Below the pieces are notes generated by a model. That model did not search any database, was not told where the DNA came from, and saw nothing but the letters and a program-made list of their open reading frames with translations. A stretch of DNA of 20,746 nt from a virus, in IMG/VR virus record IMGVR_UViG_3300037343_000176, positions 1-20,746 of that record; one strand, given 5' to 3'. Shown here one piece after another: positions 59 through 14,799 of this stretch. How positions within the stretch are numbered: position 1 is the stretch's first letter; each line of letters opens with the position of its first letter. Both the position numbers and the translations under genes were made by a program.

Positions 59-126
59 CGTTACCTAACTGTGACAAAGAAATGTTAGATTGACTTGACA
101 AAGTGCAGGAAGGTGCCGCATACTGT
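57..126 (+). promoter_or_regulatory. Promoter of the first Cys-rich gene, with upstream element
   Basis: -35 TTGACA at 95-100. The -10 is either CATACT (119-124, 18-bp spacer) or the overlapping TACTGT. The spacer carries GTGCAGGAAG (103-112). Upstream, GTTACC-TAA-CTGTGA at 60-75 matches the CTGTTACC/CTGTTA element seen at other promoters, about 34 bp before the -35. The TTGACA to start-codon stretch is almost duplicated at 771-832. Confidence 0.85.
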
Positions 127-156
127 ACTTACGCAACACCAACGAAGGGAAACAAA

Positions 157-702
157 ATGCAAAATGTAATCGGAAACTGGGCAGGAATCGAATCTGAGGA
201 ACTGAACCCAGAGAACTGGATTCAAGTTGGATTTAGATTCATCGGTCAAGAAGGAGAGCGCGAGTACCGCGTGTTCGGGCAGCTCTACGGTGAGGACTTT
301 GAGGAGACTTATTCCTCAGAATACGATGATGCCAAGTCTCTGGCATACAGCTATTTCGAAGAGCAGCTAAAGCGGATTGAAAGCGCGCAGACTTGGCTTT
401 ATGATGCTTATGAAGTCTGGGACCACGATTTTGTTGAAGTGGCTTGTGAAGCTTGTGCGGTGGAATTTGCCAAAGAACGTTCGCTTGAATGGAGTAGTGG
501 AATTTCTGCCGATTCGTTCACCCTAAATTCTGAGGAACTAGACGCAGGAGCGTTCTGCACCCCAAGCTACGCACTTGGCGATAGTGACCGCCCACAAACG
601 TGCGTGTGCGGTGTCTACTTAGACACCCGATTCACCACCGAAGGTGAGGAGTATCTTCGAGAGGAGTACCCGAAGGGTGTTCAAAAGCTCTACGGCTACT
701 AA
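157..702 (+). CDS. Hypothetical acidic protein with C-terminal zinc-ribbon-like domain
   Basis: 181 aa. I do not recognise the N-terminal two thirds, which are acidic and aromatic-rich. The C-terminal part has two cysteine pairs, C97-x2-C100 and C149-x-C151-G, spaced like a small zinc-binding fold. This part is clearly related to the whole of the next gene (AYE...C-x2-C...C-x-C-G), so one gene is a longer or shorter version of the other. I chose ATG at 157 because it follows GAAGGGAAACAAA. The longer in-frame GTG at 103 lies inside the promoter spacer and cannot be translated from this promoter. The unit has its own promoter and terminator, typical of phage accessory genes. Function unknown. 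Confidence 0.8.
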   Translation: MQNVIGNWAGIESEELNPENWIQVGFRFIGQEGEREYRVFGQLYGEDFEETYSSEYDDAKSLAYSYFEEQLKRIESAQTWLYDAYEVWDHDFVEVACEACAVEFAKERSLEWSSGISADSFTLNSEELDAGAFCTPSYALGDSDRPQTCVCGVYLDTRFTTEGEEYLREEYPKGVQKLYGY

Positions 703-711
703 TCCAAGATT

Positions 712-742
712 GAACCCTAGGGCTAACGCTCTAGGGTTTTTT
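712..742 (+). terminator. Rho-independent terminator
   Basis: Stem AACCCTAG/CTAGGGTT with a ten-base loop and a T-run, 10 bases after the stop of the 181-aa gene. Confidence 0.85.
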
Positions 743-770
743 CTTGCCCAAAAGTTTTTCTTGGAATGAC

Positions 771-800
771 TTGACAAAGTGCAGGAAGGTGCCGCATACT
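771..800 (+). promoter_or_regulatory. Promoter of second Cys-rich gene
   Basis: TTGACA 771-776 and CATACT 795-800 (18-bp spacer), or TACTGT just after. The spacer holds GTGCAGGAAG (779-788). Bases 771-800 match the promoter at 95-124 essentially completely, indicating a duplicated regulatory module. Confidence 0.85.
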
Positions 801-829
801 GTAACTACACAACGACGAAGGGAAACAAA

Positions 830-1054
830 ATGCAAAATGTAAAAACTTTGGATGCATACGAAATCAACACCGATGATGGAAGCATTGTCGACCGCGTGTG
901 CTTCTCATGCGCTTCTGCTTGGGTGAAAGAACTCACTGGCGCAGAACTCAAGTCAGACGAACCATTCGAGCAAGATGGGGTTTCCGCTTCTTGGCACTGG
1001 CCCGAGAACGATGAGACCCGCGTGTGTTGGTGTGGCGCTCTGCTAGAGGACTAG
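830..1054 (+). CDS. Small Cys-rich protein, paralogue of the preceding C-terminal domain
   Basis: 74 aa, with C24-x2-C27 and C66-x-C68-G. Residues 8-37 align with residues 83-107 of the preceding protein, so the pair arose by duplication with gain or loss of the N-terminal part. The four cysteines suggest zinc binding; no catalytic motif is visible. ATG at 830 follows GAAGGGAAACAAA. The upstream GTG at 779 is inside the promoter. A 28-base stretch around this start (806-833) is identical to the leader of the leftward gene starting at 13270. Function unknown. Confidence 0.8.
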   Translation: MQNVKTLDAYEINTDDGSIVDRVCFSCASAWVKELTGAELKSDEPFEQDGVSASWHWPENDETRVCWCGALLED

Positions 1055-1070
1055 CCCCCTAGACCCGAAA

Positions 1071-1097
1071 GCCCCCCGTGAGAGCGGGGGGTTTTTC
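1071..1097 (+). terminator. Rho-independent terminator
   Basis: CCCCCCG/CGGGGGG stem with loop TGAGAG and five T. It is a near copy of the terminator at 34-58. Confidence 0.85.
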
Positions 1098-1109
1098 TTT
1101 GCCCAGACC

Positions 1110-1139
1110 TTGACAAATGTCAGGAAAGTCTGCCATACT
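1110..1139 (+). promoter_or_regulatory. Promoter of the 78-aa gene
   Basis: TTGACA 1110-1115, 18-bp spacer, CATACT 1134-1139. The spacer contains the variant GTCAGGAAA at the same distance from the -35 as GTGCAGGAAG elsewhere. Confidence 0.8.
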
Positions 1140-1162
1140 GTACCTAAGAAGAGAGGAATCAA

Positions 1163-1399
1163 ATGTACGGGTTACCAGATAACGCAATACTTGGAACTTT
1201 GCAAATCGTGGCAAACAAGCTGACCAGAATCAAGGGTGGCCACCAGCAAACGCAATCCTACATGGATTACTTAATGCGCAACGATGGCCCAGGAAAAGCG
1301 GTGTTGCCCTTCCGAACCGAAGAAGAAAAGTTTGAAGTGGCCCAAAGTCGCCAAGCCTTTTACGACAAGAACGGGTGCTGGCCCCCAGCTACTCAGTAA
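1163..1399 (+). CDS. Hypothetical protein, 78 aa
   Basis: ATG with ribosome-binding site GAGAGGA seven bases upstream. The protein is basic in the first half, has no cysteine pair or membrane segment, and ends with the Trp-Pro-Pro turn CWPPATQ. It is the last rightward gene of the left block and stands as its own transcription unit. I do not recognise the family. Confidence 0.7.
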   Translation: MYGLPDNAILGTLQIVANKLTRIKGGHQQTQSYMDYLMRNDGPGKAVLPFRTEEEKFEVAQSRQAFYDKNGCWPPATQ

Positions 1400-1416
1400 G
1401 TTCAAAAGAAATGAAG

Positions 1417-1452
1417 AAGCCCCCTAGGTAAAAATTCCTGGGGGGCTTTCTC
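1417..1452 (+). terminator. Terminator with GGTAAAAATT in the loop, between convergent units
   Basis: The 11-bp arms are AGCCCCCTAGG and CCTGGGGGGCT, fully paired in + RNA with one G-U wobble. The loop is TAAAAATT, so the repeated motif GGTAAAAATT (1427-1436) spans the loop. The T-run is modest (TTTC). It probably ends the 78-aa gene, and possibly the leftward gene ending at 1489. Confidence 0.75.
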
Positions 1453-2455: not shown

Positions 2456-3078
2456 TACTCTCCTCTTGGGTACTCTTTGTACCATTTGTGAAATGAACCT
2501 TCGGTGCTTCCATTATAAGCATTAGCGCCAATACCCCATGCGCCCCAGTTGGTGCCTTCGCTACTCATCTGGAAAGCAATTCGTGCATTGACATAGGGGT
2601 CAAACAAGTCATCGTACTCAGACAACCCGTACTTCTCCATGCGTGCAGCTCCAAGCTTTCCTATCATGTTGATTTGGAATAGCCCGTAGCTGTTGTCTCC
2701 CGTACTGCTGTTGCCATTGTGCGCTAAAGGATTTCCTGTACTCTCCTTCATCGCCACGGCCCAAGCTGTACGCAGAGCTTGCCCTTCAAACCCGACACCC
2801 AGCAATACTTCAATCATCTCGTGTTCGTAGAAATGCTTCGGAGATTCCACAGCAGGAGAAATTTTTACCTCAGGAACTGCGAGCGCCGAATCGCTTCGGA
2901 CTTCAGCTCTAAAGATTCTCGATGCTGTGGCTTCTTCTTTGCTGTTCTCAAAAGCCGTGGTCTGTTGTGCTTGCTCCGACAAGTTGTTGAAGTCTGAATT
3001 TGCAATAGCAGATACGCCCATCAAGCTCAGTACCAGAGCTACTACCCCTACTTCAACTGTCTCTTTTTTGATACGCAC
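2455..3078 (-). CDS. Membrane-anchored lytic transglycosylase / lysozyme-like endolysin
   Basis: 207 aa from GTG 3078 (GGAAAGG seven bases upstream). The N-terminus is basic and then hydrophobic (KK...VGVVALVLSLMGVSAIA, 4-26), a signal anchor or signal peptide. Residues about 85-195 carry the SLT/lysozyme-like signature: E112 in AMKESTGNP is the likely catalytic glutamate, followed by SYGLFQIN (130-137) and a Trp/Gly/Asn-rich end (NWGAWGIGANAYNG). Members of this fold cleave the MurNAc-GlcNAc bond of peptidoglycan. With its own export signal it could act outside the membrane. It is coupled to the peptidoglycan-binding gene downstream and lies downstream of a small two-TM gene. GGTAAAAATT (2860-2869) and GCGAGCGCCG (2879-2888) both lie inside the gene. 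Confidence 0.82.
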   Translation of the reverse strand: MRIKKETVEVGVVALVLSLMGVSAIANSDFNNLSEQAQQTTAFENSKEEATASRIFRAEVRSDSALAVPEVKISPAVESPKHFYEHEMIEVLLGVGFEGQALRTAWAVAMKESTGNPLAHNGNSSTGDNSYGLFQINMIGKLGAARMEKYGLSEYDDLFDPYVNARIAFQMSSEGTNWGAWGIGANAYNGSTEGSFHKWYKEYPRGE

Positions 3079-3118
3079 AAGGTAGCCTTTCCGTTCGTGA
3101 GAGCTGTTGTAGGCATTT

Positions 3119-3292
3119 TTACCTTTGCTCCCGTGCTGAAAGTACCGCGCTAATAATTCCTATGAATCCTGACGCCAACACCCAGAGCTCGTTGCCTAGG
3201 ATGGCGGATACCAAAATTCCTACTACTGCACCAACAGAAAACACTGATGTCCATACGACATTCTTTAGGGCTTTTAGGTTCAATAGGTTCAT
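3119..3292 (-). CDS. Small two-TM membrane protein, holin candidate
   Basis: 57 aa, starting MNLLNLKALKNVVWTSV. Two hydrophobic segments (about 12-32 and 36-52) are separated by a short turn (GNEL), and the tail is REQR. Its ATG (3290-3292) overlaps the TGA of the HTH gene as ATGA, and AGAAG lies eight bases upstream. The stop codon TAA is part of a GGTAAAAATG copy of the repeat. Just upstream of the transglycosylase, it is a good holin or antiholin candidate. Function is inferred from topology and position only. Confidence 0.72.
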   Translation of the reverse strand: MNLLNLKALKNVVWTSVFSVGAVVGILVSAILGNELWVLASGFIGIISAVLSAREQR

Positions 3293-3483
3293 TGCTGTAT
3301 CTTCTTATCTGGGCGAGTGCGCCCCACTAGTCGGGCGTGGGGGTCACGCAGCACAACGCCTTGGGCAAAGATTGCCTTCCGTGCTGTTCTGTAGGCAACG
3401 CCCAGTTGCTCAGCTACTGCTTCAAGGGCTAAGCCCTCTTCGTATAACTTTGCGGCTTCTTCTGCGATTTCTATACTTTTCAT
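3289..3483 (-). CDS. Small helix-turn-helix protein
   Basis: 64 aa. Residues 5-45 (AAKLYEEGLALEAVAEQLGV then AYRTARKAIF) match the pattern of a homeodomain-like/resolvase-type HTH, followed by a basic tail. It probably binds DNA and could regulate the lysis genes it overlaps. It is also one of two proteins in the window that could read the dispersed motifs, but nothing in the sequence links it to one. The start is the ATG at 3483, 48 bases after the phosphatase gene. Confidence 0.7.
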   Translation of the reverse strand: MKSIEIAEEAAKLYEEGLALEAVAEQLGVAYRTARKAIFAQGVVLRDPHARLVGRTRPDKKIQQ

Positions 3484-3531
3484 TATGTAGTTTCTTCTTT
3501 CTATTTATAGCGGGCGCTTATGCGCTGTTGT

Positions 3532-4227
3532 TTAGTTCTTGATGTCTATTGCTGGAGCTTGTCCGTAGTCGTCACCTTGCCAATCCTGTGCATTTTGCTT
3601 TAGCAAGAATGTAACAAAGTGTTTGTTGCATAGTGCGTGTGCACTTCGCTTCTCGCGAATAAGGGCAATGATGTCTTCCATCTTGCCGCCCGCTCGTAGC
3701 AGAACCAGTGCCATTACTAGCCCAGACCTATTCCACCCAGCTTGGCAACGAATCAGTACTTTTTTACCTTTAGCCCATTCTCTGTGTGCAGCTCGGACGA
3801 TGTCGAATAGCTCTGTTGGGTCAAAGTCATTCATGTTCGCGTCATAGACGCCAAACCGAAACTCTTTAACTTGCCATTGCACTGGTTGTGCACTTGCGTA
3901 CATCGTGATTACTGTGTCGAACTGTTCGGGGGTTATCCGTGCGCTCTCTTTAGCTCTGCCAAAGTGCATCTCGTCGTCCCCGCTTGTACCGCCTTGCCAT
4001 AGGTTAGGCAAAACTTCAGACCATAGGGGGTCTCTGTACCAATCGTCAAGCATGGTTGAGTTGTCTGGGCGTTCTAAGTTGTCCAGTTCTTCCCTAGTGA
4101 GTTCTCCCCACTCTCCCCGCTGGGATGCTTCCATTCGTGCAAGCTCATCTTGCACAGTGAGCTGCTCCTTCTCCTCTTCGGAGATAAGGTCGTAGCTCAG
4201 TGGTTCTTCATGTATTTTTCTAGTCAT
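3532..4227 (-). CDS. Dual-specificity-type protein phosphatase
   Basis: 231 aa from ATG 4227 (GAGGAAAG upstream); a 245-aa reading would start inside the promoter. Residues 1-60 are acidic and likely flexible. From about 70 (LPNLWQGG) the protein follows the cysteine phosphatase fold. The active-site loop is C161-QAGWN-R167-SG, i.e. C-x5-R followed by S, and the usual preceding His is Arg (IRCQAGWNRSG). D129 in YDANMNDFDP is a plausible general acid. Such enzymes hydrolyse phosphotyrosine or phosphoserine/threonine through a cysteinyl-phosphate. In a phage it could alter host signalling; the target is unknown. It lies ahead of the lysis genes, with its own promoter at 4258-4286. Confidence 0.78.
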   Translation of the reverse strand: MTRKIHEEPLSYDLISEEEKEQLTVQDELARMEASQRGEWGELTREELDNLERPDNSTMLDDWYRDPLWSEVLPNLWQGGTSGDDEMHFGRAKESARITPEQFDTVITMYASAQPVQWQVKEFRFGVYDANMNDFDPTELFDIVRAAHREWAKGKKVLIRCQAGWNRSGLVMALVLLRAGGKMEDIIALIREKRSAHALCNKHFVTFLLKQNAQDWQGDDYGQAPAIDIKN

Positions 4228-4257
4228 TTCATCTTTCCTCACTCTTGTGATAGCTCT

Positions 4258-4286
4258 ATCATGCCACAAGTGCAGGAAGATGTCAA
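4258..4286 (-). promoter_or_regulatory. Leftward promoter of the phosphatase/lysis unit, with inverted spacer motif
   Basis: Leftward TTGACA (4286-4281), 17-bp spacer, CATGAT (4263-4258). The spacer contains GTGCAGGAAG, but on the + strand (4270-4279), i.e. opposite to the direction of this promoter. All the other clear copies share the promoter's orientation. Confidence 0.75.
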
Positions 4287-4304
4287 GTGCTAGGAAGAAA
4301 AGTT

Positions 4305-4559
4305 TTACTTGCCCCGTGCAGCAATCAAGGAACGCAAAACTTCTTCAAGCTTGTCTGCGTTGTTTAGATGACTATTACGGGAGATGTCTTCTTCTTCAAT
4401 AAGCCTGTCTAGGGAAAACACCGCGATGTGCCCTTCTTGCTCGAACATCACAACAAGTTTGGTTTCCCCGTCATTGGGGTCGTCAATGATGCTTGCTGTA
4501 AAAGAAGCTGCTGTGCCATTTGCGTGAGTGTCAATGGCTAAAATTACGGGTTTTAACAT
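4305..4559 (-). CDS. Hypothetical protein, 84 aa
   Basis: From ATG 4559: MLKPVILAIDTHANGTAASF..., a likely beta-rich N-terminus followed by an acidic helix (LIEEEDISRN) and a basic end (AARGK). The ribosome site is weak (GGA). The frame is open further up to a TTG at 4652, but that extension would run through the hairpin 4607-4632 and the GCGAGCGCCG repeat, so I prefer the short form. The family is not recognised. Confidence 0.6.
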   Translation of the reverse strand: MLKPVILAIDTHANGTAASFTASIIDDPNDGETKLVVMFEQEGHIAVFSLDRLIEEEDISRNSHLNNADKLEEVLRSLIAARGK

Positions 4560-4744
4560 TCCATTAGTGTACTGCGAGCGCCGAACCGTGATAGTCGGGA
4601 CACACTTCTCCCCAAAGGCGAGGAAGGGGAGAAAGTGCGGGGAAGGTCGCAACCCCTCATCACATACAGTGAGACAGAAATCAACAGCGTGTGGTGTCTC
4701 AATGATACCTAAATTTTTACCTCGGCGCTCGCACTTTGGGAAAA
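4560..4744 (-). promoter_or_regulatory. Long leader region with hairpin, inverted repeat and dispersed motifs
   Basis: No gene. It contains GCGAGCGCCG (4574-4583) and its inverse (4723-4732), GGTAAAAATT on the minus strand (4712-4721), a perfect 7-bp hairpin TCTCCCC/GGGGAGA (4607-4613 / 4626-4632) and GAGACA...TGTCTC (4671-4676 / 4695-4700). I could not find a clear -35/-10 pair. Confidence 0.5.
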
Positions 4745-4776
4745 AGAAAAGAGCCCCCCTAAGGAAGCTCTTTCTT
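4745..4776 (-). terminator. Leftward terminator
   Basis: Arms AAGAGC/GCTCTT (4749-4754 / 4767-4772). In leftward RNA the hairpin is followed by TTCTTTTT-like sequence. It lies after the stop of the 71-aa gene. Confidence 0.6.
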
Positions 4777-4793
4777 CTTCTTCTCTGCTGGTG

Positions 4794-5009
4794 TTACTCG
4801 TCTACAATCCCAACATCATTGGCAGCTTCGAGGACATCCCACCCGTAATGCTCGCCCATCCAAAGGGCAGCAATCCTAATTGCGAAGTCGTCATCTTTCT
4901 CAGCTTCTTGCCGTAGCACTTCATCGAGCTGAACTGTTGTCATCAGCGTGAAGTAGTCGCCTACAAACACCACTGTCCTGTTCAAAGTTACATCGTCTAC
5001 TGTGTCCAT
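4794..5009 (-). CDS. Hypothetical acidic protein, 71 aa
   Basis: Strongly acidic (MDTVDDVTLN...NDVGIVDE) with a predicted helical middle (LDEVLRQEAEKDDD). The start is the ATG at 5009, where the ribosome site and spacer are formed by GGAGAGGTAAAAATG, a copy of the dispersed motif. It has its own promoter (5046-5074). Not recognised. Confidence 0.7.
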   Translation of the reverse strand: MDTVDDVTLNRTVVFVGDYFTLMTTVQLDEVLRQEAEKDDDFAIRIAALWMGEHYGWDVLEAANDVGIVDE

Positions 5010-5045
5010 TTTTACCTCTCCTAGTTCTCTGTCTGTTGTAGCTTA

Positions 5046-5074
5046 ATTCTATGACCTTCCTGCTGCTCCCGCAA
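5046..5074 (-). promoter_or_regulatory. Leftward promoter of the 71-aa gene
   Basis: TTGCGG (5074-5069), 17-bp spacer, TAGAAT (5051-5046). The spacer contains GCAGGAAGG. Upstream, the leftward strand has GGTAAAAAAGTTATTTG (5099-5083). Confidence 0.75.
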
Positions 5075-5109
5075 GTAAGATTCAAATAACTTTTTTACCT
5101 AGCCCCTAG

Positions 5110-5155
5110 AAATGCGAAACCCTTCCCGAAGGGGGGAAGGGAAGGGCTTCGACTA
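5110..5155 (-). terminator. Leftward terminator
   Basis: Leftward RNA forms CCCTTCCC-CCCTTC-GGGAAGGG followed by TTTCGCATTT, just after the stop at 5163. A GGTAAAAA copy (5092-5099) follows about 18 bases further. Confidence 0.65.
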
Positions 5156-5162
5156 AGGGAGA

Positions 5163-5498
5163 CTACTTCGGCATCAACACCGTGTAATCCGTCGTAGCCT
5201 GAGTGGCTACGAACGCTTCTGGGAATAGTTCTTCCAGTAGTTTGACATCAGTTCCTTTACGGCTACGGCTACTCACTTCAATGCGTATTACGCCATCAAC
5301 TGTGACCACTTCTGCTTTGCCAATCAAGGTTCTGACTTGCTTCTCCAACAACTTCTTGGTCTTCTCCAAGTCGTTTACTGTCTTGCGAGTTGCAAGGTAG
5401 TCGTTTAGGAGCACTCGTGCTTCTCCTGCGAACTCAACCGAAACCTGCTCGGTGACGATTTGCTGAACTACCTTTGTTACTACTTTGGTGGTTGCCAT
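5163..5498 (-). CDS. Small protein resembling the C-terminal tail of YqaJ-type phage exonucleases
   Basis: 111 aa from ATG 5498; a GTG three codons earlier is possible. Residues about 35-65 (LATRKTVNDLEKTKKLLEKQ) form a heptad-like helix. They are followed by VRTLIGKAEVVTVDGVIRIE and a basic stretch ending KLLEELFPEAF. From memory, the order 'helix - IGxAEV-DG - basic strand - LLxExxPE' resembles the region after the nuclease core of YqaJ/lambda-type recombination exonucleases. No nuclease residues are present here, so it would be a stand-alone accessory domain. The leader is structured (5527-5575) and the promoter is at 5581-5609. Confidence 0.6.
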   Translation of the reverse strand: MATTKVVTKVVQQIVTEQVSVEFAGEARVLLNDYLATRKTVNDLEKTKKLLEKQVRTLIGKAEVVTVDGVIRIEVSSRSRKGTDVKLLEELFPEAFVATQATTDYTVLMPK

Positions 5499-5526
5499 AA
5501 CAATCACTCTTTCTTTATGTCATTTA

Positions 5527-5575
5527 CCCAGAGAGGCTATCTCGCTGGTAGTTGAGGAGCCGAACTCTTCAACTA
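5527..5575 (-). promoter_or_regulatory. Two adjacent hairpins in a 5' leader
   Basis: CCAGAGAG/CTCGCTGG (5528-5535 / 5541-5548, one mismatch) abuts TAGTTGAGGAG/CTCTTCAACTA (5549-5559 / 5565-5575, one wobble or mismatch). They lie between the promoter and the 111-aa gene, and no base separates the two stems. Confidence 0.55.
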
Positions 5576-5580
5576 GTTAA

Positions 5581-5624
5581 ACAGTATTGCATTTACCTGC
5601 ACTTGTCAAATCCATTAGGTAACG
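5581..5624 (-). promoter_or_regulatory. Leftward promoter of the 111-aa gene
   Basis: TTGACA (5609-5604), then TACTGT (5586-5581, 17-bp spacer) or AATACT. The spacer has GTGCAGGTAA. Just upstream, CGTTACC (5624-5618) recalls the upstream element of other promoters but is closer to the -35. Confidence 0.78.
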
Positions 5625-5635
5625 AATTGATAACG

Positions 5636-5836
5636 CTACACAGACCACAACAACTTCTCGTCTTTGTAGAACCTGTCAATTACTTCCTGCGCTTTCACGG
5701 GTTGCGGAGGAGCGCTACTTCTTATGATGGTCTCAATCCAGTTGTCTAGATTTTTTACCCCAATGGTTGCGAACTTCTCCGCGTCTGTCTTCCTGTGCCA
5801 AGCTTCAATCATCTTGTCTGCATCTGGGCTAGCCAT
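5636..5836 (-). CDS. Hypothetical protein, 66 aa
   Basis: Mostly helical and polar (DKMIEAWHRKTDAEKFATIG; VIDRFYKDEKLLWSV). Its ATG overlaps the stop codon of the preceding gene as TAATG, with GAGGAAG upstream, so it is translationally coupled. A GGTAAAAA copy (5752-5759) is read here as the codons G-V-K-N. Function unknown. Confidence 0.68.
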   Translation of the reverse strand: MASPDADKMIEAWHRKTDAEKFATIGVKNLDNWIETIIRSSAPPQPVKAQEVIDRFYKDEKLLWSV

Positions 5837-8613: not shown

Positions 8614-8624
8614 GATTTGTTGAA

Positions 8625-8656
8625 GAGGAGAGAGGACACCCACGAACTCTCTCCTC
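8625..8656 (-). terminator. Hairpin after the MoxR gene
   Basis: Perfect 10-bp inverted repeat GAGGAGAGAG/CTCTCTCCTC (8625-8634 / 8647-8656) just past the ATPase stop. The T-run is weak, so it may be a processing site or a partial terminator separating the two genes. Confidence 0.55.
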
Positions 8657-8665
8657 CCGTGCCAG

Positions 8666-9694
8666 CTAGATTTTTGCTGGCTTAGGCTCGTGAGGGAAAA
8701 CCTTCCCGAGCACATCTGCAACTACTGGTCTGTCCATCTCTGGGGTAGCAGCAAGTAGGTTAGCTACTGCCCACTCCGTGCCGAAGACTGCCTCCGCGCT
8801 CTTGAACGCGAGAAGCTCTCGCATCTGCGGTGCCCAAGAGGTCTCGCCACTCAGCATGCGCTTGGCTAGATTCTGCGCTCCAGTGACCAGCCCAGTGGGG
8901 ACTCCCATCAAGCGTGCTCTGCTCCAGTCCGTGGTCATTTCTGCTTGCACTGTGAACCTAGAAAGCAATGCCTCACTCAATCGGACACCTGGAGCGTGCG
9001 GGTTTGTCGCAGCAATAACAAAGAAGTCTTTATGTGCCTTGACCTTCCCGCGCTCTGGGTTTGCCGTGACAACAAGCTCCCTCCGCCCATCCATCAGTCC
9101 GTAGACAATGGACAGCACTTTAGGGTCAATCAAGCCAATCTCGTCAATGAAGTAAACGCCTCCAGTTTCGGCAGCTCTAACTAGGTCTCCGTCTATCCAC
9201 TCGAATCCTCCAGCTGGTGTTTGCACATAGCCACCAATCATGTCAGCCACTTCAGTGTCGCCCGTGCCCATCAAGGTGTAGATGTCTGGGAACGCGGCTT
9301 CTACAAGGGCTGTCTTGCCACAGCCAGGGGCTCCGTAGAGCAAAGTGAACATAGGAGAGCCCCCGCCCCCTGAAAACGCCTTAGAGGTCTGCTCACGGGT
9401 CTGCCGTAGCACTGTTACATCGGTGTGTGCTCCCCAAGGGCGGGCGTAGTAGATGTCACCATTCGGACGAACATACTCGTCTTCGCCTCCTATGTTGTCT
9501 ACTACAACACTTTTTTTACTCTTGTATGGTGCTCGCTCCGCGCCTGAAGCCCGCTCGACATACCTGCCGTGTGGACTGACCTTCGCGCTCAGAGCCATAC
9601 TCGACTCCTCGTTCCTTGACTGGGACACTACTTCAGTAGCTAAATCCCAGATTGAAGCCAGTGACACTTCGTATCTTTCTTTCAATGTTGACAA
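8666..9694 (-). CDS. MoxR-type AAA+ ATPase (CobS/RavA-like)
   Basis: 342 aa. Walker A is GAPGCGKT (121-128), Walker B YFIDEIG (182-188), sensor ATN (229-231) and the likely arginine finger R246 in LLSRF. This order is typical of MoxR ATPases, which use ATP to drive conformational change in a VWA partner, here encoded next. I chose TTG 9694, where GGGG-TAAAAA-TTG puts the ribosome site in a copy of the dispersed motif and leaves nine bases after the previous stop. ATG 9598, with GAGGAG six bases upstream, would give a 310-aa protein and is a real alternative. Confidence 0.85.
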   Translation of the reverse strand: MSTLKERYEVSLASIWDLATEVVSQSRNEESSMALSAKVSPHGRYVERASGAERAPYKSKKSVVVDNIGGEDEYVRPNGDIYYARPWGAHTDVTVLRQTREQTSKAFSGGGGSPMFTLLYGAPGCGKTALVEAAFPDIYTLMGTGDTEVADMIGGYVQTPAGGFEWIDGDLVRAAETGGVYFIDEIGLIDPKVLSIVYGLMDGRRELVVTANPERGKVKAHKDFFVIAATNPHAPGVRLSEALLSRFTVQAEMTTDWSRARLMGVPTGLVTGAQNLAKRMLSGETSWAPQMRELLAFKSAEAVFGTEWAVANLLAATPEMDRPVVADVLGKVFPHEPKPAKI

Positions 9695-9703
9695 TTTTTA
9701 CCC

Positions 9704-10171
9704 CTACTCTGCTACTGCTGGTGTAAGCAAATCCTCTGGGTAGCCCAGAGCCGTGCGTGATTGATTGATGCGGTAAAGCATCTTCTTCGGTGTGGTCTGG
9801 GTTGAGATGTCCGTCATGTCTTTCTTTGACGCTTCAACCAGAATAGGCTCCTTGACTATGACCCAGCCTCCTCCAGCAAGACTGTCAAGCCAGCCAACAG
9901 CAAAGGACATTCGCATGTCCATGCTGATGTCTTTCTCTGCTTCGCTGGTCAAGGGTGTGCTGAGGGTGTCACCAAGTGAGCGTAGAAAGCTACTACGCCA
10001 TTGTTTCTTGGGGCTGACGGCGCTCACCACTCTGCGATACAGAGCAGCGGAGACAATCTCCCCCGACTCCGCATAGCCATCAGGTGTGATGAGCATCTGC
10101 AAGGTTGACGCGTTTCTGCGGAACTCCGCATACATTGCAACGCCTTGAGAGCTTTTTGTTTGGTCTAACAT
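9704..10171 (-). CDS. Hypothetical protein upstream of the MoxR/VWA pair, 155 aa
   Basis: No domain recognised. The protein is mixed alpha/beta, with a Gly-rich turn (LAGGGWVIVKEP) and a C-terminus ending LLTPAVAE. ATG 10171 has AGAAAGAAG upstream. It is nine bases from the ATPase start, so it is probably cotranscribed and may be a third partner of the MoxR/VWA pair. Confidence 0.68.
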   Translation of the reverse strand: MLDQTKSSQGVAMYAEFRRNASTLQMLITPDGYAESGEIVSAALYRRVVSAVSPKKQWRSSFLRSLGDTLSTPLTSEAEKDISMDMRMSFAVGWLDSLAGGGWVIVKEPILVEASKKDMTDISTQTTPKKMLYRINQSRTALGYPEDLLTPAVAE

Positions 10172-10200
10172 TTGGGTGTCTTCTTTCTCTTTGTCGTTAT

Positions 10201-10242
10201 TTTTTACCTCTTGGGTGGGGAGAGCTTTCGCCCTCTCCCAAG
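10201..10242 (-). other. Hairpin followed by a GGTAAAAA copy
   Basis: CTTGGG (10210-10215) pairs with CCCAAG (10237-10242), with an inner GAGAG/CTCTC stem. In leftward RNA the motif GAGGTAAAAAAT (10210-10199) follows directly where a T-run would be expected. It lies in the gap after the 120-aa gene. Confidence 0.5.
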
Positions 10243-10248
10243 AATCTT

Positions 10249-10611
10249 TTAGTCTCCGAACTTGATGCCGATAGCCCGTGAATCGGTGCCATCCCAGTCA
10301 ACTTCAAATCCTCTGGTTTCGAAGTGCTCAACAACAGCTCTGCCCTGCTGGGTTGGTGTGCCATCTTCGCCCACTAGGTTGTCGTGGTTGAAGTAGATAG
10401 CAGCTCCAGTCAAGTTCTCGTTGAAGTCAAGGCGACTGCCCTGCCCTCCGTAGTGCCAGATGATTGGCTGGGTCTCTGAGACACCTGCGTCATAGCAACT
10501 ACGGCAACAGGTCATTATGTTTCTGCGAGCCACAACACCTGCGCTACGAATCTCTCGCATTGCTATGTCGAAGCGTTCCTTGGTCGAAAGCTGAACTTCT
10601 GTGATAGTCAT
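10249..10611 (-). CDS. Hypothetical protein with CCxxC motif (possibly DUF6891-like)
   Basis: 120 aa from ATG 10611 with AAGGAGACAAA. N-terminal helix, then RRNIMTCCRSCYDAG (30-44) with three cysteines, then AIYFNHDN and a C-terminal strand (FEVDWDGTDSRAIGIKF). The order helix - CCxSC - YFxHxD - GxxVxWDG recalls a bacterial domain of unknown function that I believe is DUF6891, but I cannot check it. Own promoter (10656-10683). Confidence 0.68.
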   Translation of the reverse strand: MTITEVQLSTKERFDIAMREIRSAGVVARRNIMTCCRSCYDAGVSETQPIIWHYGGQGSRLDFNENLTGAAIYFNHDNLVGEDGTPTQQGRAVVEHFETRGFEVDWDGTDSRAIGIKFGD

Positions 10612-10655
10612 TTTGTCTCCTTGTGTCGTTCGGAATGTTCTTTGCTACAAGTAAT

Positions 10656-10721
10656 ACATTACAGCATCTTCCTGCAATGTCTACTAACTTCGCAAAGTTA
10701 TTTGTAACAGTTGGGTAACAG
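10656..10721 (-). promoter_or_regulatory. Leftward promoter with full upstream element
   Basis: TAGACA (10683-10678), 16-bp spacer, TAATGT (10661-10656). The spacer contains TGCAGGAAG. Upstream, CTGTTACC-CAA-CTGTTA (10721-10705) is followed by CAAATAACTTTGC. The two CTGTTA copies are 11 bases apart, one helical turn. Confidence 0.75.
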
Positions 10722-10723
10722 TA

Positions 10724-10751
10724 AAGCCCCCGCAGAAAACTGCGGAGGCTT
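10724..10751 (-). terminator. Leftward terminator
   Basis: Arms AAGCCCCCGCA/TGCGGAGGCTT with loop GAAAAC. The + strand mismatch is a G-U wobble in leftward RNA. It lies 12 bases after the 68-aa gene and is related to the hairpin at 6647-6674. Confidence 0.65.
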
Positions 10752-10763
10752 CACTAGGGCTGG

Positions 10764-10970
10764 TTAGCTGTCTTCGTACTTTTCGTACCTACGCACATAG
10801 GCTTGAAACAACAGAACGCTGTTTATGTGAAAAGATACTGAATCAAAATCTGACCGCTCAAAAGCCATTCTTGCGTTGTCTACGGACTTTGACAATCTCT
10901 CCCTGAAGTACATGTAGTCTGCTTCGGTGATTGTCTCTGTGGTGCTGGTGGTGCTGGTTGAATCGAACAT
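10764..10970 (-). CDS. Hypothetical protein, 68 aa
   Basis: From ATG 10970 with AAGGGGAACCAA. Thr/Ser-rich N-terminus (MFDSTSTTSTTETITEADY), then a polar helix. The in-frame TTG at 10991 would lie in a leader hairpin. No family recognised. Confidence 0.65.
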   Translation of the reverse strand: MFDSTSTTSTTETITEADYMYFRERLSKSVDNARMAFERSDFDSVSFHINSVLLFQAYVRRYEKYEDS

Positions 10971-10986
10971 TTGGTTCCCCTTCTCT

Positions 10987-11079
10987 GACAACCGCCTTGG
11001 TTGTCTGACTAAAGTCTCTCAGACCTTTATGCACTTTGTCAAGCCTTTATGACATTTATTTATAACAGTTCGGTAACAG
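10987..11079 (-). promoter_or_regulatory. Leftward promoter, upstream element and leader hairpin
   Basis: TTGACA (11042-11037); the -10 is weak (near 11019-11013). The spacer has GTGCATAAAGG, a diverged form of the motif. CTGTTACC-GAA-CTGTTA lies at 11079-11063. The leader has a perfect 7-bp hairpin GACAACC/GGTTGTC (10987-11005). Confidence 0.6.
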
Positions 11080-11191
11080 AGCTGCGAGCGCCGTGCACTT
11101 CAGAGCTCATAAAAAGTGAGCAGTTTTATCGCGACATACTCAGGTCGGGTTTTGACGGGGAACGACACCCATCAAACTTAATTTTTACTTT
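11080..11191. other. Non-coding gap with GCGAGCGCCG and small inverted repeats
   Basis: Contains GCGAGCGCCG (11084-11093), GCTCA...TGAGC near 11105-11120 and TGACGGG...CCCATCA near 11153-11175. A GTAAAAATT variant sits just past the next gene's stop. I see no gene and no clear terminator. Confidence 0.4.
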
Positions 11192-11479
11192 TTAGAAATC
11201 CCCATACTTGCTGAGGTCGACGCCGTATCGTTCAAAGGCGGCTCGTAGTCCAGCTTCATCTGCGTCTGCCTCGTAGGACTCTGTGATGAGCCGTGAGACT
11301 ATTGGTCTGAACATCTCGCTCGTATCTTCAATGATGTCCCAGTCCACTTCGTTCCAGTAGGTGGTCTCCATCAGCACATAACCTTCGGCGTTGCCGTAGC
11401 TCCCGTCAGCAGCAAAGTAACTCAATACTTTCTGGGGTGGCTTTGGTGCTCTCTTGCGCTTGAACTTTCCCTTTGGCAT
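11192..11479 (-). CDS. Hypothetical protein, 95 aa
   Basis: Basic N-terminus (MPKGKFKRKRAPKPPQK), then an acidic Trp/Tyr-rich middle (TTYWNEVDWDIIEDTSEMF) and helix. ATG 11479 follows GAGAGGTAAAAAATA, so the ribosome site is again in the dispersed motif. The basic head suggests nucleic-acid contact, but there is no recognised family. Confidence 0.68.
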   Translation of the reverse strand: MPKGKFKRKRAPKPPQKVLSYFAADGSYGNAEGYVLMETTYWNEVDWDIIEDTSEMFRPIVSRLITESYEADADEAGLRAAFERYGVDLSKYGDF

Positions 11480-11543
11480 TATTTTTTACCTCTCTCTGAA
11501 TACTCCTGGTTGGTGGTTCGGGCACTCCACTACCCGCACCATC

Positions 11544-11816
11544 TTACTCCTCGCCTTCGTGTGACAAGTCGAACTCTGAAACAACCGCGTCAAGGTCGTT
11601 CTCATCGAAGTTCTCCCAGTACTCTTCAGTCTTGCGGGCAAAGCGTGTCCACTCGTCCTGATTCATCTCTAGTCGGTAGCCGTGAACGCTCACAGCTTCT
11701 TCTACGGACTCCTTAGTCCAGATAGCACAAGCAACAAGCTCCGTGCCTATGCCCGCTGCTTCTAGGGCTTCAAAATACTCACGCCACTCTGTGACGGTGT
11801 TCTGGTAACTCTTCAT
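11544..11816 (-). CDS. Hypothetical acidic protein, 90 aa
   Basis: From ATG 11816 with GAAGGAGACACG. Acidic throughout (EYWENFDENDLDAVVSEFDL), mostly helical, one cysteine. The longer frame begins inside the promoter. Function unknown; the net charge would allow DNA mimicry but nothing specific shows it. Confidence 0.7.
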   Translation of the reverse strand: MKSYQNTVTEWREYFEALEAAGIGTELVACAIWTKESVEEAVSVHGYRLEMNQDEWTRFARKTEEYWENFDENDLDAVVSEFDLSHEGEE

Positions 11817-11848
11817 CGTGTCTCCTTCGTTCGTTGCGATGTAGTCAT

Positions 11849-11878
11849 ACATTAGTCCATCTACCTGCACTTTGTCAA
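11849..11878 (-). promoter_or_regulatory. Leftward promoter of the 90-aa gene
   Basis: TTGACA (11878-11873), 18-bp spacer with GTGCAGGTAG, TAATGT (11854-11849). Confidence 0.8.
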
Positions 11879-11902
11879 GCCGATTTGAAAAGAATTTTGG
11901 AA

Positions 11903-11991
11903 ATCTTTTTTACCTAGAGAACCAGCAATCTGCGAGCGCCGTCCCTGCCTAAATTTTTACCCCTGCCCGCTGGTCATCGGATTTCGGGCAG
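11903..11991 (-). promoter_or_regulatory. Cluster of dispersed motifs and a hairpin
   Basis: Two leftward GGTAAAAA copies (11907-11914 and 11952-11961) flank GCGAGCGCCG (11932-11941). A perfect 7-bp hairpin CTGCCCG/CGGGCAG (11964-11970 / 11985-11991) comes directly before the second copy in leftward RNA. There is no gene here. Confidence 0.55.
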
Positions 11992-12035
11992 AAAAAAACG
12001 CGGGCCCGAAGGGGGTGGGCCCGCGCTCTCTTTTT
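11992..12035. terminator. Bidirectional terminator
   Basis: CGCGGGCCC/GGGCCCGCG stem (11999-12007 / 12017-12025), with seven T on the leftward side and five T on the rightward side. It ends the MGYSHYF gene. Confidence 0.85.
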
Positions 12036-12040
12036 CGGTG

Positions 12041-12511
12041 TTAGGTAGTTACTTCAAGTTCAAACGGTGCCTCAGCCTCAAAGCCGAATACGGTGCGGAA
12101 AAGGTCGCGCCCGTCATACCACTCTGACCAGTAGCCGTCTGAGCTAATCTCAACGGCATCGGTGTAGCAATCCTTGAGCCATAGCAACACAGCTACTACA
12201 ACGGTGTCATAAGGCTTTTGGGCGGTCTTGCAGAAGTCGAACAGCATTGGCTCGCCTGCGGCGTGCATTGGTTGGCGCGGTGATACGGCGTGCCAAGAGA
12301 ATGTTTCGTGTGCGTCGTCGCCCATACCATTGAAAGCTACGCGGGTCTCGGTAATCTCTGGTGTGGCTGTCTCGCCCATAGCGTCTCCGATTTCAATGCC
12401 ACGGGTTTTAGCCTCGGCAAAAATTCTCTCAACGCCTTTTGTGAATCTGCCGTAAGTGGCTAGCCCACCTGAGCGAGCTATGTTTCTTTGGAAATAATGG
12501 CTGTAACCCAT
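12041..12511 (-). CDS. Phage protein of the MGY(S/T)HYF-starting family, 156 aa
   Basis: From ATG 12511. The N-terminus MGYSHYFQRN resembles a widespread set of phage and bacterial proteins of unknown function that begin MGYTHYF or similar. A conserved-looking DDAHETFSW (73-81) and an acidic C-terminus follow. No catalytic motif is obvious. Its promoter -35 overlaps the stop codon of the upstream 45-aa gene, so it can be controlled separately from that operon. Confidence 0.72.
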   Translation of the reverse strand: MGYSHYFQRNIARSGGLATYGRFTKGVERIFAEAKTRGIEIGDAMGETATPEITETRVAFNGMGDDAHETFSWHAVSPRQPMHAAGEPMLFDFCKTAQKPYDTVVVAVLLWLKDCYTDAVEISSDGYWSEWYDGRDLFRTVFGFEAEAPFELEVTT

Positions 12512-12564
12512 AATCTTTGTCTCTTTCGTTTGTCGTTCTGGCTCCATCTAGTGGAGATAGTGAA

Positions 12565-12593
12565 ACTCTATGCTGCTTTACAACTAATGTCAA
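12565..12593 (-). promoter_or_regulatory. Leftward promoter of the MGYSHYF gene
   Basis: TTGACA (12593-12588), 17-bp spacer, TAGAGT (12570-12565). The spacer motif is not present. Confidence 0.7.
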
Positions 12594-12727
12594 CTATCAG
12601 TTTCGAGCGTGTCGCGGTCTGCATCAGCTTGCCTGTAGTACCGCTCCATAACCATCTCGTGCGTGGATTCCTCGCCCTCTGGCAAGTCTTCTTGGATTTC
12701 CTCCAGGCGTTCTACATAACCTCTCAT
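12590..12727 (-). CDS. Small acidic protein, 45 aa
   Basis: Begins MRGYVERLEEIQEDLPEGEE and is charged and helical. ATG 12727 follows AAGGGGTAAAAATT, a full copy of the dispersed motif acting as ribosome site and spacer. It lies five bases after the stop of the zinc-ribbon gene, at the end of a tight operon. Its TGA overlaps the -35 of the next promoter. Likely real, function unknown. Confidence 0.6.
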   Translation of the reverse strand: MRGYVERLEEIQEDLPEGEESTHEMVMERYYRQADADRDTLETDS

Positions 12728-12732
12728 AATTT

Positions 12733-12918
12733 TTACCCCTTGTCTATCTGTAGTCGCTGTCCAAACCCCGTGCCGAGCTGGCCCGTGGTGTACTCCTCAA
12801 AACAAATCTCGCAAAGGTAAGCCCAAGGGCCGAACTTTGTTGCCGCGTCGTACTGTGCCACACCGCCGCAACCTATGTCGCATTGTGGGAAAGCCGTTAC
12901 TAGTGCCGTGTTAGGCAT
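12733..12918 (-). CDS. Small zinc-ribbon-like protein, 61 aa
   Basis: From ATG 12918 (GGGGAGG upstream). C13-x3-C17 and C36-x2-C39 (LCEICFEEY) give a four-cysteine zinc-finger pattern. The start overlaps the previous stop as TAATG. A longer frame to 12966 would lie inside the upstream gene. Confidence 0.72.
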   Translation of the reverse strand: MPNTALVTAFPQCDIGCGGVAQYDAATKFGPWAYLCEICFEEYTTGQLGTGFGQRLQIDKG

Positions 12919-13142
12919 TAGCCGACCTCCCCTGTCCACTCGTCTTCCGTGCCGCAAGTGGGGCAAGTGAAGTTGCCTGAGATTTCCCCGCCGTAAGCTT
13001 CGGCTTCAAACTCAAGCTCTTGCTCAACCTCGAACATTTTGCAATCGTGGTTGAAGCACAGTACGGTCTCGGTTACTTCTAGGTAAGCGTCAGGCCCCGC
13101 AATCTGGTACTCGTTGCCCGACACTCCTGATGGGTAATTCAT
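12918..13142 (-). CDS. Small zinc-ribbon-like acidic protein, 74 aa
   Basis: C29-x4-C34 and C60-x2-C63-G (CPTCG) in an acidic background. ATG 13142 overlaps the TGA of the preceding gene (ATGA) and has AGGAGGA as ribosome site. It is the middle gene of a four-gene operon (13270 to 12590), in which two of the four products are Cys-rich. Role unknown. Confidence 0.72.
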   Translation of the reverse strand: MNYPSGVSGNEYQIAGPDAYLEVTETVLCFNHDCKMFEVEQELEFEAEAYGGEISGNFTCPTCGTEDEWTGEVG

Positions 13143-13270
13143 TCCTCCTCCTTAGTGAAAACCATAATCGCGCCGCACTCGAAGAAAGCTTCGGTGACAC
13201 GGTCTATGTCCCAAGCGTCCACCAATACGGTGGCGGTCTTGAAATCTGAATAGGTGGCTATTATCTGCAT
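13139..13270 (-). CDS. Small hypothetical protein, 43 aa
   Basis: Begins MQIIATYSDFKTATVLVDAW; beta-alpha-like, ending VFTKEEE. I chose ATG 13270 because it follows a 28-base leader identical to that of the rightward gene at 830 and lies behind a good promoter (13298-13326). A longer frame to 13501 would cross that promoter and the gene upstream. Confidence 0.68.
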   Translation of the reverse strand: MQIIATYSDFKTATVLVDAWDIDRVTEAFFECGAIMVFTKEEE

Positions 13271-13297
13271 TTTGTTTCCCTTCGTCGTTGTGTTTCT

Positions 13298-13326
13298 ATT
13301 ATACAGACTTATCTGACATTTTGCAA
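13298..13326 (-). promoter_or_regulatory. Leftward promoter of the four-gene zinc-ribbon operon
   Basis: TTGCAA (13326-13321), 17-bp spacer, perfect TATAAT (13303-13298). The spacer has AATGTCAGATAAG, a diverged form of the motif. Confidence 0.8.
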
Positions 13327-13328
13327 GT

Positions 13329-13556
13329 TTAGTAGCAAGTGCCGCAAGTACAATGTGCTTTCTTGCCGCTCTTGCATCGGTCAGTAGCCTCGTGCCTCGG
13401 TGACATTCCGTATGCGTTGTAGGTGCAACCCTCGATGCCACACGCGGTGTAGTGGTAGGTCTGAACCTGTGCGCCACGGCATCGGGTGCAAGTTGTCTCA
13501 CAAGGCTCGCCCTCTTTGTAAAAGTAGCAAGGCTCGGTGATTAGTGTTGTCGTCAT
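13329..13556 (-). CDS. Cysteine-rich protein, 75 aa
   Basis: Ten cysteines (10, 19, 23, 26, 39, 44, 61, 69, 71, 74), including CxxxCxxC and CxCxxC groups, enough for two zinc sites. ATG 13556 follows GGGGTAAAAATG, i.e. the dispersed motif is its ribosome site. It overlaps no other gene and is probably cotranscribed with the 49-aa gene just upstream. Cysteine spacing resembles DnaJ/HypA-type zinc clusters, but no family is assigned. Confidence 0.7.
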   Translation of the reverse strand: MTTTLITEPCYFYKEGEPCETTCTRCRGAQVQTYHYTACGIEGCTYNAYGMSPRHEATDRCKSGKKAHCTCGTCY

Positions 13557-13564
13557 TTTTACCC

Positions 13565-13714
13565 CTACGCTTTCTTCTCGAAGATTACTGGGCCGACGAT
13601 ACGGTATCGCGTGCCCGTCCAGCTCAAGATGCCGATTGCATAATCCTCGGCCTCTTTCTTTGTAGCGAACTCGTAAGGAAGGAATTCCTTAGGTGTCTCG
13701 ATAACATAAACCAT
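13565..13714 (-). CDS. Small hypothetical protein, 49 aa
   Basis: Begins MVYVIETPKEFLPYEFATKK, continues ...EDYAIGILSW and ends GPVIFEKKA. ATG 13714 has AGGGGAACAAA. The TAG stop overlaps the ribosome site of the next gene (TAGGGGTAAAAATG). It looks like a compact beta-alpha-beta protein. It has a strong promoter, which supports it being real. Confidence 0.62.
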   Translation of the reverse strand: MVYVIETPKEFLPYEFATKKEAEDYAIGILSWTGTRYRIVGPVIFEKKA

Positions 13715-13759
13715 TTTGTTCCCCTGCCGTTCTAACAAGTTATTTACTTGTTGATGATT

Positions 13760-13789
13760 ATTCTAGTACCTTTCTGACATTGGTGTCAA
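13760..13789 (-). promoter_or_regulatory. Leftward promoter of the 49-aa gene
   Basis: TTGACA (13789-13784), 18-bp spacer, TAGAAT (13765-13760). The spacer has ATGTCAGAAAGG, a variant of the motif. AAAAAAACTTTC lies just upstream. Confidence 0.78.
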
Positions 13790-13850
13790 GCTTATTCTGA
13801 AAGTTTTTTTCGAGCCGTGCCGTGCTTCAAATTTTTACCTCACCCCAGAT

Positions 13851-13892
13851 AGAGAAACGGGGCACAACGGTTGCCCGCTGTACCCCGTGCTC
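13851..13892 (-). terminator. Leftward terminator with GCAA tetraloop
   Basis: Arms 13858-13871 and 13876-13889 enclose, in leftward RNA, a GCAA loop, followed by TTTCTC. It lies 13 bases after the 97-aa gene. A GGTAAAAATT copy (13830-13839) follows. Confidence 0.75.
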
Positions 13893-13904
13893 TGGTGTTG
13901 CTAG

Positions 13905-14198
13905 TTATGCATTCTGCGCCATTTTCTGTAAATCGCTAATCAACCAAGTGTTGCTTATTTCTTTGTAGTCCAGCTCTGTAATGAAAGTCTCCGTGTTGTT
14001 GTCGTCATCGTCAACCGAATAGCTAAGAAAAATCTTGCTTTCCCAGTCTTGAATAGAAACCAACTTTGTTTCGTCCCAGTCGAAGGTCGGGCAATAGATT
14101 TCTAAGTTGTCACGAACATACTCAATCATTGTTTCTTTAGTCTGGAACAGCTCTTCTTCTTCTAGAAGGTAGATGTCCTGGTGGAAGTACTTTTGCAT
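13905..14198 (-). CDS. Hypothetical acidic protein, 97 aa
   Basis: ATG 14198 with GAAAGAAAGAGGACACA. Acidic (LLEEEELF; SVDDDDNNTETF), with an alternating strand/helix look. Not recognised. Own promoter region near 14245-14275 and own terminator. Confidence 0.7.
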   Translation of the reverse strand: MQKYFHQDIYLLEEEELFQTKETMIEYVRDNLEIYCPTFDWDETKLVSIQDWESKIFLSYSVDDDDNNTETFITELDYKEISNTWLISDLQKMAQNA

Positions 14199-14244
14199 TG
14201 TGTCCTCTTTCTTTCGTTCGTTCGGATGGTGCGTAGGTACACGC

Positions 14245-14290
14245 TATCATAGTATCTTCCTGACCGCAAGTTCTTTCTGCAAAGTTTTTC
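14245..14290 (-). promoter_or_regulatory. Probable leftward promoter of the 97-aa gene
   Basis: A TATGAT -10 (14252-14247) with TCAGGAAG in the expected spacer place. The -35 is poor (GAACTT by spacing). AAAACTTTGC lies upstream as in other promoters. Confidence 0.5.
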
Positions 14291-14296
14291 GCGTCA

Positions 14297-14332
14297 AGAA
14301 AAAACCCCCAAGCTTTTAGGCGAGGGGGCTCT
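14297..14332 (-). terminator. Leftward terminator
   Basis: CCCCC/GGGGG stem (14305-14309 / 14324-14328) followed leftward by TTTTTTC. It lies after the 95-aa zinc-site gene. Confidence 0.7.
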
Positions 14333-14356
14333 TCGTACAGGCGTGCCGTTGCAAGA

Positions 14357-14644
14357 TTAGTCTGCTACTAACTCGCTAGCTGGCTTGCCCCTGATGCCCA
14401 TAACATTCAAGCTAATGCCTAGTCTCTGGAAAATCTGAATAGCGGTTTCTTGGGGGGTCTTGTATTCATTGAACTCTGCAAAAAGATTGTCTACTTCGTC
14501 TTTACACGTTGGGTGCCACGGGGCGCCCAATTCGTCGAACCATACTAGGTCGTCTTCCTTTCCCGCGTTGAGTGAGTCTTCGCTCTCGCAGGCCCTACAC
14601 ACTCGCTGCTCGTCTGAGAGCATTCTTATATGTTTTGATTGCAT
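14357..14644 (-). CDS. Small protein with CxxC...HxxC zinc site, 95 aa
   Basis: C16-x2-C19 (VCRACES) and H44-x2-C47 (WHPTC) give a LIM/treble-clef-like ligand set. The rest is helical (DNLFAEFNEYKTPQETAIQI). ATG 14644 has AAGGAAAAG. Promoter at 14689-14717. It is divergent from the rightward gene at 14828. Role unknown. Confidence 0.7.
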   Translation of the reverse strand: MQSKHIRMLSDEQRVCRACESEDSLNAGKEDDLVWFDELGAPWHPTCKDEVDNLFAEFNEYKTPQETAIQIFQRLGISLNVMGIRGKPASELVAD

Positions 14645-14688
14645 AATCTTTTCCTTTCTTATTTAAGCGTTGCGCTTGCAACAAATTT

Positions 14689-14717
14689 ATAATAAACAAC
14701 CTCCGTCAAAAAGTCAA
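14689..14717 (-). promoter_or_regulatory. Leftward promoter of the 95-aa gene
   Basis: TTGACT (14717-14712), 17-bp spacer, TATTAT (14694-14689). Three TTGAC copies lie in tandem (about 14726-14705), so the -35 choice could shift. The leader has a GTTGC/GCAAC hairpin. Confidence 0.65.
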
Positions 14718-14732
14718 GCCTGTCAAGCATCG

Positions 14733-14799
14733 GGTAAAAAGAAATGTTTAGAAAGTTTTTTGCAGGATAGTTGACAAAAGTGCAGGAAGATGTTATAGT
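14733..14799 (+). promoter_or_regulatory. Strong rightward promoter with spacer motif
   Basis: TTGACA 14771-14776, 17-bp spacer with GTGCAGGAAG (14780-14789), TATAGT 14794-14799. AAAGTTTTTTGCAGG lies upstream, and a + strand GGTAAAAA copy sits at 14733-14740, between the divergent promoters. Confidence 0.88.

Follow-up and report, generated by a model that had tools for sequence, protein, structure and literature searches.

A conserved word in promoter spacers and a tiny helix-turn-helix protein suggest a switch for a whole set of genes in uncultured phages

The C1 repressor of phage P1 has 22 dispersed asymmetric 17-bp operators and also controls its own promoters (PMC8546580). The repressor of L5, from the actinobacterial phages, is a monomeric helix-turn-helix (HTH) protein of 183 amino acids (aa) with two DNA-binding domains and asymmetric sites at promoters and elsewhere (PMC9283540); its stoperators are oriented with transcription and lose their function in the reverse orientation (PMC9283540; PMC6550527). 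In phage T4, the MotA box replaces the −35 element (PMC6755090), and the 17-bp repeats of Cluster O phages (Corndog), present at more than 30 sites, are palindromes that also occur away from promoters (PMC4351075). Here, we describe a conserved word lying between the −35 and −10 elements of many promoters in a 20.7-kb phage fragment (IMG/VR record IMGVR_UViG_3300037343_000176, positions 1 to 20,746, hereafter the window), which recurs across dozens of IMG/VR phage contigs. Together with a tiny HTH protein, this word suggests an undescribed switch for a whole set of phage genes, which may work like the operators of P1 C1 or L5, yet would fit the definition of either only in part.

The conserved core of the element is CAGGAAGRT, embedded in (A)AAGTGCAGGAAGRT; GTG is the least conserved part of the word and is often TGT in relatives. 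The strict core CAGGWARRT occurred ten times in the window, each time in an intergenic region, for which a coding fraction of 0.77, taken from a hand-drawn gene map, gives a chance probability of 0.23^10, or about 4e-7. With up to two mismatches, GTGCAGGAAG had 38 matches in the window versus 22.4 ± 4.5 in shuffles. The combination of TTGACA and CAGGAAG (at most one mismatch in each) separated by 3 to 7 bases was observed 9 times, when 2.3 were expected and 60 shuffles gave at most 6.

A decamer of this kind was present at every position listed in the original prediction, which had placed it about five bases after a TTGACA-like −35. The decamer in fact starts 2 bp after the −35, and it is the core CAGG that lies 5 bp after. 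A perfect TTGACA precedes eight of the sites (103, 779, 1119 and 14780 on the plus strand; 11861, 5593, 11031 and 13770 on the minus strand), but the −35 is weak at 5053 (TTGCGG), 6587 (TTGCTA) and 10668 (TAGACA), and absent at 14256. At 4270, the word is present but inverted relative to a minus-strand promoter. The observation thus stood as regards the word, and had to be corrected for the spacing, for some of the −35 elements and for the orientation at 4270.

Outside the window, the exact 18-mer TTGACAAAGTGCAGGAAG was found in 50 IMG/VR stretches, and whole IMG/VR contigs hold it several times each, while the reversed control gave 0–1 matches. The possibility that the decamer might be equally frequent outside promoters was not borne out: all strict cores in the window are intergenic, and the motif-positive sets (827 kb) contain 83 promoter-associated versus 36 other sites. 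Motif-negative sets contain 15 sites of all kinds per 519 kb, corresponding to about 24 per 827 kb. In a thinned set of 112 sites, conservation was strong for CAGGAAG, weak for GTG and, promoter elements apart, almost nil in the flanks; the −35 and the core had served to select this set, which leaves the middle and the flanks as its only unbiased parts. When 84,980 bacterial and archaeal species genomes were scanned, 23 single 18-mer matches turned up in unrelated taxa and none in actinobacterial records, and a host-derived motif was rejected on these grounds. No convincing match to the promoter word was found in the cultured phages and plasmids scanned, and neither these nor the species genomes contained a comparable set.

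The spacing between −35 and −10 was 17–18 bp in 41 of the 56 sites with a clear −10, with the core 3–7 bp from the −35. The distances from the core to the −35 and to the −10 were anticorrelated (r = −0.38, permutation p = 0.0016), and in most lineages the core floats relative to the −35 while the hexamer spacing holds. Because this spacing is kept while the core moves, the promoters look complete without help. By eye, a TG before the −10 (extended −10) was frequent in the alignments. The word also exists in an inverted form, TTGACA-Y-CTTCCTGCACTT: 10 distinct promoter sequences, standing before several different kinds of genes, have it at a gap of exactly 1 together with a good −10, and an eleventh inverted match at this gap lacked a −10. 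Both orientations were observed at the promoters of small genes whose products share an xGLPDSAxxGT motif, the word being forward in about 10 phages, including the window promoter at 1110, and inverted in about 11, of which three (L177, L190 and L223) were missed by the automatic tag and read by eye. Four other members (L105, L113, L252 and L256) carry the word in neither orientation. Such tolerance of orientation and phase would favour a repressor over an activator as the word-binding protein, and the natural flip of the word at orthologous promoters would then allow these two roles to be tested directly.

Two other descriptions of the site were rejected. The variant TTGACAAATGTCAG is locally dyad-symmetric, but the commoner GTG form is not, which argues against a dimeric palindrome. 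An upstream direct repeat at −20 reached at least 5 matches in 7 of 101 promoters, compared with about 1 at neighbouring offsets, and is thus present in some promoters only rather than being a general feature.

Open reading frames of nine motif-positive contigs and the window were compared with those of five motif-negative contigs and part of Actinomycetia phage DSL-LC01. A 64-aa protein, encoded at 3289–3483 on the minus strand of the window, was found in 10/10 of the former sets and in 1/6 of the latter, and no other near-exclusive family examined had a DNA-binding domain. It contains a homeodomain-like HTH (Pfam HTH_23, E = 2.5e-4, below the gathering score), with a recognition segment, YRTAR, that is invariant in the aligned set, followed by a basic GRTRP tail (GRTRPDK in the window). 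Its predicted structure is a three-helix HTH (pLDDT 78), for which Foldseek gave weak matches to DeoR and resolvase HTH domains (best E = 0.33). A MerR/excisionase-like gene at 18490–18981, with a weak Pfam match, was judged less likely to encode the regulator.

Nearly all HTH matches in loci selected by their AAA ATPase fell in loci with the motif. Among the ATPase-selected contigs, five had both motif and HTH, one the motif only, none the HTH only and 24 neither; the corresponding Fisher p of 4e-5 overstates independence, because the contigs are related and the HTH cut-off (E ≤ 1e-20) was chosen after the data had been seen. In whole contigs, the closest HTH homologues at this cut-off were likewise located in motif-bearing contigs. 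Conversely, every one of the 27 loci retrieved with the HTH sequence contained at least one site; 24 of them were rescored, with 0 matches in the reversed-sequence control, and the remaining three were known from the search with the word. The exact 18-mer search had missed seven of these 27 contigs. In many phages, the promoters upstream of the HTH gene itself carry sites, some doubled or inverted. The proposal that a protein contacts the spacer word is thus well supported at the level of sequence by its recurrence, floating position, occurrence in both orientations and co-occurrence with the HTH gene, and such a contact appears probable.

The element, its placement, its tolerance of orientation and phase, and its co-occurrence with the HTH gene are established as a sequence pattern. 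On balance, we think that the word is an asymmetric operator for the phage HTH regulator, which would most likely be a steric repressor of early promoters that also regulates itself. The word (A)AAGTGCAGGAAGRT would then lie in the −35/−10 interval of SigA-type promoters that are complete in other respects and often have an extended −10. The 61–64-aa HTH protein most likely binds it, probably as one monomer per site with the help of the GRTRPDK tail, and may sometimes also occupy another copy that lies about 20 bp upstream, on the same face of the DNA. Covering approximately −31 to −17, the bound protein is proposed to exclude the host RNA polymerase. The promoters would fire immediately upon infection and then be shut off jointly as the HTH protein accumulates, including those upstream of its own gene. 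Steric repression agrees best with the consensus hexamers, the tolerance of orientation and phase, the sites doubled around the −35 and the sites upstream of the HTH gene. Early-gene shut-off is favoured over the maintenance of lysogeny because no tyrosine integrase was found in 15 contigs, which are fragments, so that an integrase could be missed; DNA polymerase A was present in 7 of these 15. If this reading is right, a single 64-aa protein controls a dozen promoters within 15 kb.

As with P1 C1, one asymmetric sequence is dispersed over many promoters, and one phage repressor is proposed to act on its own promoters as well. This likeness concerns the layout of the sites. P1 is temperate whereas no integrase was found here, the candidate has 64 aa, and the site lies in the −35/−10 spacer and is unrelated in sequence. 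With L5 and the cluster A phages, the system shares asymmetric sites, an HTH protein and, given the probable host, a setting in actinobacterial phages. However, the orientation rule of the stoperators does not hold here, as inverted sites occur in the spacers of good promoters, orthologous ones included, and the sites seem to be mainly in promoters (83 versus 36). In addition, the candidate has a single HTH in 61–64 aa instead of about 183 aa with a stoperator domain, and no separate search for an L5-like repressor was made. The Corndog repeats resemble the present sites in being repeated in an actinophage that is not obviously temperate, but differ in being palindromic and not confined to promoters.

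Several observations weigh against repression by the HTH protein. The phages are related, so that the co-occurrence of the HTH gene and the element is not fully independent, and the fragment of G004 carries the word without an HTH. The phages G009, G010, G044 and G045, whose HTH homologues are 57–62% identical, contain few sites, most of them close to the HTH gene and some of them doubled, e.g., GTCAGGAAGGTTTGACAAAAGGTCAGGAAGG. No tyrosine integrase was found, which leaves no sign of a lysogenic state to be maintained. Finally, 33/33 sites of the G041/42 and L105/113 lineages have the core at a distance of exactly 6 bp from the −10, which is often extended, and most of the −35 elements in these lineages are poor. 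This fixed phase with a weak −35 is the best argument for activation, or for a word that stands in for the −35, and it cannot be explained away.

An activator is the alternative that survives best, even though we regard it as rather unlikely. The HTH protein would dock on the spacer word and recruit or stabilise the host RNA polymerase, in the manner of MotA at the middle promoters of T4, thereby turning on a timed class of genes. Besides the lineages with a fixed 6-bp phase, some sites of the window are without a good −35 (5053 and 14256), and the contigs tested yielded no integrase, in keeping with a virulent phage that has timed classes of genes. The likeness to T4 MotA/AsiA would lie in a phage-encoded factor, a box near −30 and, in these two lineages with their weak −35, a fixed distance to the −10. 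However, the MotA box replaces the −35 rather than following it (PMC6755090), whereas in most lineages the word follows a −35 that is mostly a consensus TTGACA, and many promoters of the other lineages keep this TTGACA at 17–18 bp. Moreover, an activator in contact with the polymerase should poorly tolerate a word found in both orientations and several phases.

It is less probable still that the word is the operator of another phage or host protein, the HTH gene being a mere linked neighbour. Linkage by descent is to be expected, given that the HTH gene lies within the same cluster, and several other small genes were likewise found in 10/10 motif-positive sets. Nevertheless, the other near-exclusive families examined are without DNA-binding domains, the scattered single 18-mer matches in species genomes, none actinobacterial, argue against a host regulon, and L024, which has a divergent recognition helix, carries a different spacer word. 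Direct reading of the word by the host RNA polymerase as a spacer or extended −10 element, or its being a relic of promoter duplication, is very improbable: TGn precedes the −10 in many promoters and near-identical promoters stand before tandem small genes, but the inverted sites, on which an intrinsic polymerase element was rejected, and the floating position speak against it, and a relic would not persist in phages whose flanks have both drifted.

The HTH homologue of L024 is 55% identical, and L024 is without the CAGGAAG-type word; instead, about 20 strong SigA-type promoters in its region 3307–15230 share a different conserved word in the spacer, TTGACATT...TGTTTACA, and have CGAT ahead of the −35. 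In L020 and L036, yet other words recur in the spacers (TTTGTCAG in L020, AAAGTTT before the −10 in L036). These data are suggestive of a regulator and a site that change together as pairs across lineages. A broader and more tentative idea, which we consider possible but doubtful, is that the −35/−10 spacer is an exchangeable slot that each lineage fills, in many early promoters, with its own word in either orientation, matched to its own small HTH protein (L024 and, more weakly, L020 and L036). If true, it would represent a type of regulon distinct from those of P1 and L5 and used by integrase-less phages.

No near relative of the window was found among cultured phages. The AAA ATPase of the window shares 58% identity with its counterpart in DSL-LC01 and 54% with the one in Microbacterium phage Pumpernickel, so that the host is probably an actinobacterium. 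The phages bearing the element form a family of uncultured phages that probably infect freshwater actinobacteria and are probably virulent. No described promoter regulation was found for freshwater actinobacterial phages in a limited literature search; the present analysis names a candidate regulator-site pair for them, and the word offers a means of recognising the regulon and its phages in metagenomic data.

On the plus strand of the window, the promoters at 95–124 (−35 TTGACA 95–100, site 103–112, −10 CATACT 119–124) and 771–800 (TTGACA 771–776, site 779–788, CATACT 795–800) are followed by that of the GLPD small gene (1163–1399) at 1110–1139, in which a TGTCAGGAAAGT variant lies forward between TTGACA and CATACT. 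Another plus-strand promoter, at 14771–14799, has TTGACA, GTGCAGGAAG at 14780–14789 and −10 TATAGT, with a half-site, TTGCAGGATAG, about 20 bp upstream. The inverted case is the minus-strand promoter at 4258–4286, TTGACA-TCTTCCTGCACTTGTGG-CATGAT with a 17-bp spacer, in which GTGCAGGAAG reads on the plus strand at 4270–4279; it drives a phosphatase gene (3532–4230) and then the HTH gene downstream on the same strand.

The other features are on the minus strand. Promoters with TTGACA were found at 5582–5609 (GTGCAGGTAA at 5593–5602, −10 AATACT/TACTGT) and 11849–11878 (GTGCAGGTAG at 11861–11870, −10 TAATGT). The sites with a poor −35 are located at 5046–5062 (CAGGAAG 5056–5062, −10 TAGAAT), 6578–6597 (TTGCAGGGAG, −10 AATACT) and 10656–10677 (TTGCAGGAAG, −10 TAATGT), and the one lacking a −35 at 14246–14265 (GGTCAGGAAG, −10 TATGAT), with a second half-site, TTGCAGAAAG, at 14273–14282. 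Weak forms were observed at 11025–11054 (GTGCATAAAG at 11025–11034, TTGACA at 11037–11042, and a second copy, TGTCATAAAG, 20 bp upstream), 13308–13317 (TGTCAGATAAG with TTGCAA and TATAAT) and 13770–13789 (TGTCAGAAAG after TTGACA with a core gap of 7, −10 TAGAAT).

The promoters at 8585, 12565 and 20273 are without the word, as had been predicted, and form a separate class that is real in the sequence. At 6747–9694, the AAA ATPase adjoins a protein whose DSL-LC01 counterpart is annotated as a cobalamin biosynthesis protein, driven by the promoter at 8585. A leader like ACGACGAARGGAAA, in the interval between promoter and start codon, is conserved in many phages of the group, L024 included, and is found in the window at 142, 815, 13285 and 11830. 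About 0.8 kb at 15000–15826, between the genes at 14828–14992 and 15827–16066, is without a clear gene and holds repeated GGTAAAA-like words in both directions. Finally, GGTAAAAAT occurs 16 times on the minus strand (from 2869 to 17759) and once on the plus strand, when about 0.05 are expected per strand. Its orientation is that of the main direction of transcription, and it sits within and between genes. Several relatives (L005, L012, L013, L177 and L190) likewise have it often and with a strand bias; L020 and L024 lack it.

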